DNA of 64,000 bases from Vibrio agarivorans (GTDB lineage Bacteria > Pseudomonadota > Gammaproteobacteria > Enterobacterales > Vibrionaceae): the NCBI RefSeq assembly GCF_030409635.1, contig NZ_JAUFQF010000004.1:1584241-1648240 (forward strand). The letters run 5' to 3'. The position numbers and the translations under genes were made by a program. Positions within the stretch are counted from its first letter, which is position 1; the number at the start of each line of letters is the position of its first letter. Below are positions 42,746-44,604 of this stretch, in pieces. The notes under the pieces were generated by a model. The model saw only the letters and a list, made by a program, of their open reading frames with translations, was not told where the DNA came from and searched no databases.

Positions 42746-43414
42746 TTATGATGCGTAATGATCGTTGAGAATAGACGCTGTAAATTGAGTGCGTAGATAG
42801 AAACCTCTTGGGCGCGTTTTAATGATTTTTCCACTAGAACCATACGCTTCAGTTAGCGCTTTGCCATTGGCAGCTTTAGGGCGCAGCTGAAGCATCTCTC
42901 CGTGCCTAGCGGTTATCTTTTCAATATCCCCAAGGACAATCATCTCCATTAACTCTTCCCAGTCTTGACGCAGTTGTTTCTCTTGCTCAGGGCTCGGCGA
43001 CCATATTAATGGCGCTCCCACTTTACGCTCCGCCAATGGAATTTCTCTTTCTCCTTCGATAGGCACCCACAAGACACGTGACATTTTATTGCGAACGTGG
43101 CTGTTCTCCCAAGTGAGCCCATGAACGCCCAGCAGAGGTGCTACACAGACAAATGTGGTTTCAAGTGGCTTGCCCTGATAGCTAATCGGAATAGTTTTGA
43201 GTTCTATCCCCAGCTGTTCAAAATCTTGTTGCGGCTTGCTTCCCGCTGTTGCACCGAGGTGCCACTCTATGAGTTGTCCAACCCAGCCTTTATCTCGCGT
43301 GAGATCGTTTGGCACTGACATTGATGCCTCTTGCGCGAGTTGAGCAAAGGTCATGCCGGCAATTTGCCAGGCTCTATCAAGGAGTTCTTGTTCTGTTTCT
43401 GGTTCAGCTTTCAT
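42746..43414 (-). CDS. mutH: DNA mismatch repair endonuclease MutH
   Basis: A 222-residue (E. coli 229) GATC-specific nickase that cuts the unmethylated strand during methyl-directed mismatch repair. The catalytic DxnExK motif is visible as [12 protein letters not shown] with Asp64, Glu71 and Lys73, and the C-terminal [16 protein letters not shown] is typical. Its presence implies Dam methylation in this organism. It is divergent from rppH across a 671-bp gap with a cluster of DnaA boxes. Confidence 0.96.
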
Positions 43415-43570
43415 CGTGTCTTGTTGCGTGGGTACATAACTGGAAATTGAGAGTATCGGTGTTTTCTGAGTCGATTGATGTTGATTCTAGCAGATGATGC
43501 AGGTGTAACGGCACTGCTTATCGGTTGTTGTTGCTCTTTAATATTGAGTAAAAAGTCATTTAAGTTCAAC

Positions 43571-44050
43571 TTATCCACAGAAAGCGAGCCCAAAAAGAGC
43601 GAGAGCTAAAGGTATGTATGAATAAACAGGGGTTTTGAGTGCAATAAATGGTTGAAAAACTAGACTAAGTTCTAATATTAACTTTTTAGTGTGGATAACG
43701 TTACGGATGGTTGATCTTTGACCAGTTTGGTTTTGGTTGGATTTAATAACGGTAAGGTTAGACGAGGTATTCTTTGTTTTTGTATTAAGTGGCTGAAATG
43801 TGGTGTTATTTTCCTATTTTTCTGACTTTGTGTGTGATTGGTTTTCGATTGGGTGTTGAGTTTTTGATCTAATTGGTGACTATTTTGCACATGGTTATTC
43901 ACAGAAAAGGTGAATAAATGTGGGCTGTGTCTCACTCTAATGTTGATAAGTTCTAGTGTGGCGAAAAGTTATCCATAAAGACGGGCTTCTTGCACAAATC
44001 ATGCATTAATCACACTTGTAGGTTTGCTAGTGCTGGGGATATGTGGAAAA
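43571..44050. promoter_or_regulatory. DnaA-box cluster between mutH and rppH (DARS2-like candidate)
   Basis: Matches to TTWTNCACA are: TTATCCACA at 43571-43579 (+), TGTGGATAA at 43690-43698 (-), TTTTGCACA at 43883-43891 (+), TTATTCACA at 43895-43903 (+) and TGTGGAAAA at 44042-44050 (-). One-mismatch copies are GGTGAATAA at 43909-43917 (-), TTATCCATA at 43969-43977 (+) and TCTTGCACA at 43988-43996 (+). The three at 43883-43917 form a tight core of two direct copies and one inverted. E. coli carries the DnaA-reactivating sequence DARS2 next to mutH. The region is A+T-rich and has no credible gene. Confidence 0.65.
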
Positions 44051-44085
44051 ATCACGGCATTAAAGAATTTATTTGAGGTCGGCCA

Positions 44086-44604
44086 GTGATCGATGGCGAT
44101 GGTTACCGCTTGAATGTCGGTATTGTGATTTGTAACAACCATGGTCAGGTATTCTGGGCTAAACGATTCGGACAACACTCATGGCAATTTCCTCAAGGGG
44201 GCATTGATGAAGGCGAGACACCTGAAGAAGCCATGTACCGTGAGTTATACGAGGAAGTCGGCTTAAAAAAACATGAAGTGAAGATCGTTGCGACGAGTCG
44301 TCATTGGCTGAGATATAAGCTCCCCAAACGACTCGTTCGATGGGATTCAAAGCCGGTCTGTATTGGCCAAAAACAGAAATGGTTTCTGCTGCGATTAGAC
44401 TGTGATGAGTCACGAATTAATATGCAGCGCGGAAACATGCCTGAATTTGATGGGTGGCGCTGGGTGAGTTATTGGTATCCAGTGAGACAAGTAGTGTCTT
44501 TTAAGCGCGATGTGTATCGTCGTGCGATGAAAGAGTTTGCCTCAGCGGCGATGCCTTTCCACGAGCGCAAGTTGAAATCTAAGCGCAAGCATAAAAGAGG
44601 ATAG
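44086..44604 (+). CDS. rppH: RNA pyrophosphohydrolase RppH
   Basis: A 172-residue Nudix hydrolase (E. coli 176) that removes pyrophosphate from the 5' end of mRNA and starts RNase E-dependent decay. The Nudix box spans about residues 38-60 ([17 protein letters not shown] then YEEVG). The start is GTG with TTTGAGG upstream. ptsP begins two bases after its stop codon, so the two are co-transcribed, as in E. coli. A DnaA-box cluster lies in its upstream region. Confidence 0.97.

Follow-up and report, generated by a model that had tools for sequence, protein, structure and literature searches.

Within the window (the whole 64 kb stretch of DNA analyzed here), mutH and rppH lie on either side of a gap of 671 bp (43415-44085) that has a G+C content of 37.6%. 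Its left border is mutH on the minus strand (42746..43414; NCBIfam MutH model, E 1.4e-114) and its right border is rppH on the plus strand (44086..44604; NCBIfam RppH model, E 3.3e-100), an arrangement that makes the gap a divergent promoter region. Five exact DnaA boxes of the form TTWTNCACA are found in it, at 43571(+), 43690(-), 43883(+), 43895(+) and 44042(-). The first two are outer boxes, TTATCCACA on the plus strand (43571..43579) and an inverted TTATCCACA on the minus strand (43690..43698). The next two, TTTTGCACA (43883..43891, plus strand) and TTATTCACA (43895..43903, plus strand), form boxes III and II of a tight core, in the box nomenclature of PMC5742627, and the fifth, TTTTCCACA (44042..44050, minus strand), stands 35 bp before the rppH start. 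Box I, an inverted one-mismatch box TTATTCACC on the minus strand (43909..43917), makes up a DARS core with boxes II and III, and the 43883-43917 stretch reads TTTTGCACA, 3 bp, TTATTCACA, 5 bp, inverted GGTGAATAA, a 9-3-9-5-9 layout. An earlier, sequence-only reading had reported five TTWTNCACA matches, all of which we located, and a tight core with spacers of 3 and 5 bp, which is exactly as described. Its count of three single-mismatch copies was too low; the gap has seven (at 43545, 43617, 43909, 43941, 43969, 43988 and 44006), six of them within 43571-44050.

The density of boxes lies far above what a composition-matched null delivers. When the gap was shuffled 5000 times with its dinucleotides preserved, exact boxes averaged 0.175 per shuffle and numbered 3 at most; no shuffle reached five exact boxes, none reached twelve boxes at one mismatch or fewer, and none contained the 9-3-9-5-9 core. 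The remainder of the window and the genome-wide rate served as the other nulls for the box count. Across the 4.9 Mb genome TTWTNCACA occurs 389 times, hardly more often than its reversed control (370 times), and at the genome-wide rate 0.038 exact boxes would be expected per 480 bp. The 64 kb window as a whole has no box excess (7 exact matches versus 7.2 expected), and outside the gap it holds two exact boxes and no copy of the core. Enrichment on the scale of the window or of the genome was accordingly not used as an argument; with no excess at either scale, the clustering is itself the signal. The core pattern at zero mismatches has a single occurrence in the 4.9 Mb genome.

E. coli MG1655 has its DARS2 between the same gene pair, mutH and rppH, in the same relative orientation as in the window. 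Both DARS1 and DARS2 of E. coli share core boxes I-III with the same spacing and with box I opposite (PMC5742627), a 3 bp spacing is also described for the E. coli DARS2 double box (PMC11317965), and the order, orientation and 3 and 5 bp spacing of the window's three boxes are those of both E. coli sites. Letter by letter, E. coli DARS2 has TTCTTCACA-act-CTATCCACA-gaaaa-GGTGAATAA where the window has TTTTGCACA-tgg-TTATTCACA-gaaaa-GGTGAATAA; boxes II and III are exact consensus in the window, whereas each carries one mismatch in E. coli.

The likeness extends beyond the core. In an alignment of the window, E. coli and 15 of 118 gaps from relatives, in which the same blocks are visible throughout, the outer boxes fall at matching or nearly matching offsets: the box at 43571 aligns with an E. 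coli outer box and the inverted box at 43690 with an E. coli inverted box, 119 bp apart in both species. From the start of the inverted box to GATCTTT there are 23 bp in window and E. coli alike, the inverted outer box stands 193 bp from the core in the window versus 185 bp in E. coli, and from the core start to rppH the distances are 203 and 192 bp. A conserved block, GGTTGATCTTTGACCA (43709..43724, plus strand), which contains this GATCTTT, is by alignment a putative Fis site FBS2-3, and an IHF-like stretch, TAAGTGGCTGAAA (43786..43798, plus strand), aligned to E. coli TAATGCATTGACT, is a putative IHF site placed by the alignment together with what we take to be the IHF consensus. The match of this stretch to that consensus is weak, which counts against a reading of the gap as DARS2. 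The stretch precedes core box III by 97 bp, compared with 87 bp in E. coli, and the 10 bp extra amount to about one helical turn. The exact box 35 bp before rppH is present in the window and absent from E. coli DARS2; read by eye, 11 of the 12 aligned Vibrionaceae sequences have an exact box at this place.

For conservation among relatives we assembled 130 loci, 80 by scan, 30 by family search (150 genomes) and 20 further. Divergent mutH beside rppH was present in 119 of these and absent from 11 within the stretches examined. Excluding L092, which is the window's own genome, leaves 118 gaps, of which Vibrionaceae contribute 82 (78 distinct) and other Gammaproteobacteria 36. Box order and spacing are conserved among the vibrios: of the 78 distinct Vibrionaceae gaps, 75 contain the core at one mismatch or fewer per box. 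So do 28 of the 36 gaps from the other Gammaproteobacteria. The core is absent or degraded in three Vibrionaceae gaps (L032, L128 and L145), which counts against the DARS2 reading, and in 8 of the 36 gaps outside the family (L055, L058, L060, L069, L079, L080, L082 and L088). Exact boxes number 0 to 6 per distinct Vibrionaceae gap, with a median of 4, so the window's five are usual.

The offsets are kept as well. With a looser pattern, which recovers 77 Vibrionaceae gaps (the window included and up to 4 duplicates kept in), core box III starts 202-206 bp before rppH in all 77, and the two outer boxes were both found in 70 of them, at a distance of 118-120 bp, but not both in the other 7. Of 67 Vibrionaceae gaps, 49 have GATCTTT 23 bp from the inverted box and 16 have it at 51 bp, and GATCTTT lies 139-142 bp from the core, instead of about 170 bp, in at least 16 of 72, which counts against the DARS2 reading. 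Among the loci without mutH beside rppH, L013 and L037 are truncated near a contig end, L129 has a core that is degraded at best, and L130 (G021:C5:163000-165000) has an intact core before rppH and no mutH match in the 1.4 kb upstream. The rppH of L130 carries an in-frame stop near its end. Seven loci from Providencia, Photorhabdus and Arsenophonus (L051, L056, L059, L068, L070 and L085, which are Providencia and Photorhabdus loci, and L081) have neither mutH nor the core upstream of rppH.

The chromosomal position of the site also resembles that of DARS2. Sites resembling dif were sought throughout with what we take to be the dif pattern. If contig C4 is taken as the whole of chromosome 1, which fits with a dif-like site at 0.99 of the half chromosome on C4, the 688 kb from dnaA to the site correspond to 0.46 of the half chromosome. 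E. coli DARS2 stands at 0.41, on coordinates from PMC11317965 and the E. coli genome length. The site therefore shows a location between mutH and rppH, a three-box core of fixed spacing with box I opposed to II and III, as in the definition of PMC5742627, and a place about midway between origin and terminus. The sequence-only reading had proposed a candidate DARS2-like locus beside mutH, and the core, the offsets and the gene pair support a closer description than "DARS2-like": judged by these features, the gap is the syntenic Vibrio orthologue of DARS2. The orthology is directly apparent in sequence, architecture, synteny, conservation and mid-arm position.

In E. coli, ADP-DnaA molecules gather on the core and, once bound IHF and Fis activate the site, lose their ADP; the resulting apo-DnaA takes ATP (PMC4245941, PMC5742627). 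It is highly probable, in our estimation, that the Vibrio orthologue acts by this mechanism to recharge DnaA and time the chromosome 1 origin, and we infer protein binding, nucleotide exchange and timing at the Vibrio site by analogy. ADP-DnaA molecules would bind the three core boxes, and the DnaA pair on boxes I and II, head to head, would help ADP to leave; apo-DnaA would be released and then take up ATP. This reaction would be switched on by IHF and Fis at sites lying between core and outer boxes, and the outcome would be more ATP-DnaA and a chromosome 1 origin that fires on time. The Fis sites FBS2-3 are needed for activation of E. coli DARS2, a shift of IBS1-2 by 10 bp towards FBS2-3 left the site moderately effective and one of 5 bp only partially so, and representative species with a similarly placed DARS2 core show high conservation of both IBS1-2 and FBS2-3 (PMC4245941). 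In the same study the outer boxes IV-VI, among whose counterparts we take the Vibrio outer boxes to be, were dispensable in a plasmid assay.

Alternatively, the boxes may be operators through which DnaA controls transcription of rppH and mutH, with no part in nucleotide exchange. The divergent promoter region, the exact box at 44042 so close to rppH and kept in most aligned Vibrionaceae gaps, and the DnaA-bound sites reported upstream of several E. coli genes (PMC11317965) are what such operators would lead one to expect. An operator role does not account for a DARS-type inverted third box at fixed spacing, however. The core is also some 200 bp away from rppH and some 470 bp away from mutH, and G021 retains the core where mutH is not detectable; we therefore consider an operator role very unlikely. 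The cluster might instead only titrate DnaA or, like datA, promote ATP hydrolysis, as its densely packed boxes would allow; datA, which we weighed from its description in PMC5742627, is likewise a box cluster with an IHF site. Yet DnaA pairing head to head on boxes I and II is described as prominent in DARS sites (PMC5742627), and a spacing fixed over this phylogenetic range is not needed for titration alone, which makes either version highly improbable. Chance clustering, for which the AT-richness of the gap might be invoked, is refuted by the shuffles and by the conservation of the core across Vibrionaceae, and its probability is negligible.

The identification of the gap as DARS2 places it in a known class. 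V. cholerae is among the species with DARS2-homologous sequences in the Figure 8 legend of PMC8682772, and DARS-like sequences with the same localization in V. cholerae are noted in PMC6090056, citing Fujimitsu 2009. As a V. cholerae DARS2 is already in print, the mutH-rppH site is a further case of a known site type. Our comparisons indicate that Vibrio retains the E. coli system for DnaA recharging with even the box spacing preserved, outer boxes included, and this degree of conservation makes a fast-growing laboratory Vibrio a sound place to study it.

With up to two mismatches allowed, a genome-wide search for the core pattern finds three places (that in the window, C4:76629 and C1:634031), with 0 matches for the control. 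The C4 place is the counterpart of DARS1 (G000:C4:76629-76659; L123:1501-1531), about 355 bp before uvrB. Like E. coli DARS1, it has a three-box core with the same spacing as in the window; it differs from the window's DARS2 in adjoining uvrB and in being one base off the core pattern, in box III. On its far side we named, by eye, a tRNA-like stretch and an rsxA-like frame. Chromosome 1 also carries a perfect inverted pair, TTATCCACA-5-TGTGGATAA (G000:C4:2937467-2937489; L270 position 1568), which we examined in 12 Vibrio stretches (L270-L281). The own-genome copy lacks, by eye, a third box at 3 bp on either side, and the frames neighbouring similar pairs in other Vibrio differ in size and strand between groups, as judged without homology. 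With no third box and with differing frame contexts, we do not count this pair as a DARS core.

The remaining place holds a DARS-shaped triple DnaA-box element of 37 bp (G000:C1:634028-634064; L124:1498-1534), whose letters are TTATCCAAA-act-TTATCCACC-gtttt-TGTGGATAA. It has the 9-3-9-5-9 layout, the orientation and the inverted box I of the window's DARS2. It differs in box II, where the last base is C, T or G rather than A, and in its surroundings, as the genes usually found beside it have no relation to mutH or uvrB. Exact cores at zero mismatches are found in 164 of 369 genomes of the class (0 matches for the control), with two or more in several genomes and five in one; a third core alone would thus not be unusual. 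About 0.2 such places are expected by chance at two mismatches, on a rough estimate, so that the element in one genome proves nothing; conservation does.

A query of 262 bp around this chromosome 2 element matched 24 of 41 genomes, that is, its own and, among the 24 further genomes of the genus, 23; it matched none of the 16 genomes outside the genus. One of these 23 genus matches (G529, L206) is the uvrB-side site; G529 still matches the narrower pattern, at an unlisted place. At three mismatches or fewer the pattern of the element occurs in 227 of 329 Vibrionaceae genomes, nearly always once, with 0 matches for the control. By hand count, 209 of these genomes lie in its own genus (227 genomes) and 18 among the 102 genomes of other genera; the pattern was found in none of the 52 genomes of g8, the 14 of g11 or the 8 of g10. 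In the plasmid collection, five records appear, four Vibrio replicons of 1.8-2.1 Mb and one from Pantoea.

For base frequencies we used 36 ungapped rows, representing 35 genomes (L190 and L228 are one place), with the weaker g3, g6 and g7 forms excluded. The mean frequency of the commonest base is 0.93 in the 37 bp element versus 0.50 and 0.47 in the 60 bp flanks, although picking the rows for their likeness to the element gives the element an advantage over its flanks. All three boxes are within one mismatch of TTWTNCACA in 16 of the 35 distinct genomes, our own among them, whereas box III has at least two mismatches in 19, which counts against a DARS role. An inverted exact box lies 71-75 bp before the start of the element in 20 of the 35 genomes and another 123-126 bp after it in 10; in their place, our own genome carries an exact box in direct orientation, 16 bp ahead of the element. 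In genera g3 and g7 (L209-L221, L224 and L225), box III and the inverted box both show TTACCC while box II stays TTATCC, and two of the three boxes have thus changed in matching fashion.

The assignment of the element to chromosome 2 follows its company. The rctB gene is on the element-bearing contig in all 27 relatives tabulated (G025, whose element has an unlisted place, was searched and excluded from the table). Our own genome has rctB and the element on separate contigs, C2 (0.50 Mb) and C1 (1.26 Mb) respectively, which we take to be two parts of chromosome 2. A dif-like site is on the element's contig in 23 of the 27 relatives, at distances of 16-195 kb (median 22 kb), and the element is within 60 kb of it in 21 of these 23, the exceptions being G130 (134 kb) and G595 (195 kb). 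On the 13 contigs of known length the element stands at 0.79-0.99 of the half circle from rctB, and in our own genome it is 39 kb from a dif-like site with two mismatches. Genus g3 departs from this pattern, with the dif-like site a long way from the element (about 515 kb in G055 and about 447 kb in G026), and these distances limit the link with the terminus to the Vibrio genus.

The usual neighbours of the element are genes for an FAD-oxidoreductase and an FtsX-like permease, named by eye from sequence, and the element might be no more than an operator of the former or a terminator of the latter. This explanation is weakened by the persistence of the element where one or both neighbour matches are missing. 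In tblastn comparisons of about 1.5 kb on each side, it is kept without the FAD neighbour in L226 and L230, without the FtsX neighbour in L197, L208 and L222, and without either in L209-L221 and the weaker matches L223-L225. At L197 (G526:C2:246300-249300) an integrase-like open frame, identified by eye, takes the place of the FtsX-like neighbour. What lies at the chromosome 2 place is thus a DARS-shaped DnaA-box element, present as a rule in one copy and retained where the adjoining genes change, and this retention speaks for a site with a cis function of its own.

It is possible, although we regard it as rather doubtful and offer it tentatively, that Vibrio possess a third DnaA-reactivating site on chromosome 2, near the terminus, where ATP-DnaA would be made at the end of that chromosome and its state could thereby influence when the chromosome 1 origin next fires. 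Reactivation of DnaA by this element, and the feedback, are speculation. We found no report of a DARS-type site on chromosome 2 in the portions of the open-licence literature available to us, including those of the V. cholerae replication papers PMC6090056, PMC3937223, PMC6284228 and PMC8826520. The point of the element is its position together with its conservation, and, if the proposal holds, it matters more than the mutH-rppH site. In two-chromosome bacteria the known crtS signal runs from chromosome 1 to chromosome 2. If our proposal is true, the chromosome 2 element would provide a return signal, from chromosome 2 to chromosome 1, in the reverse direction to crtS and by a testable route.
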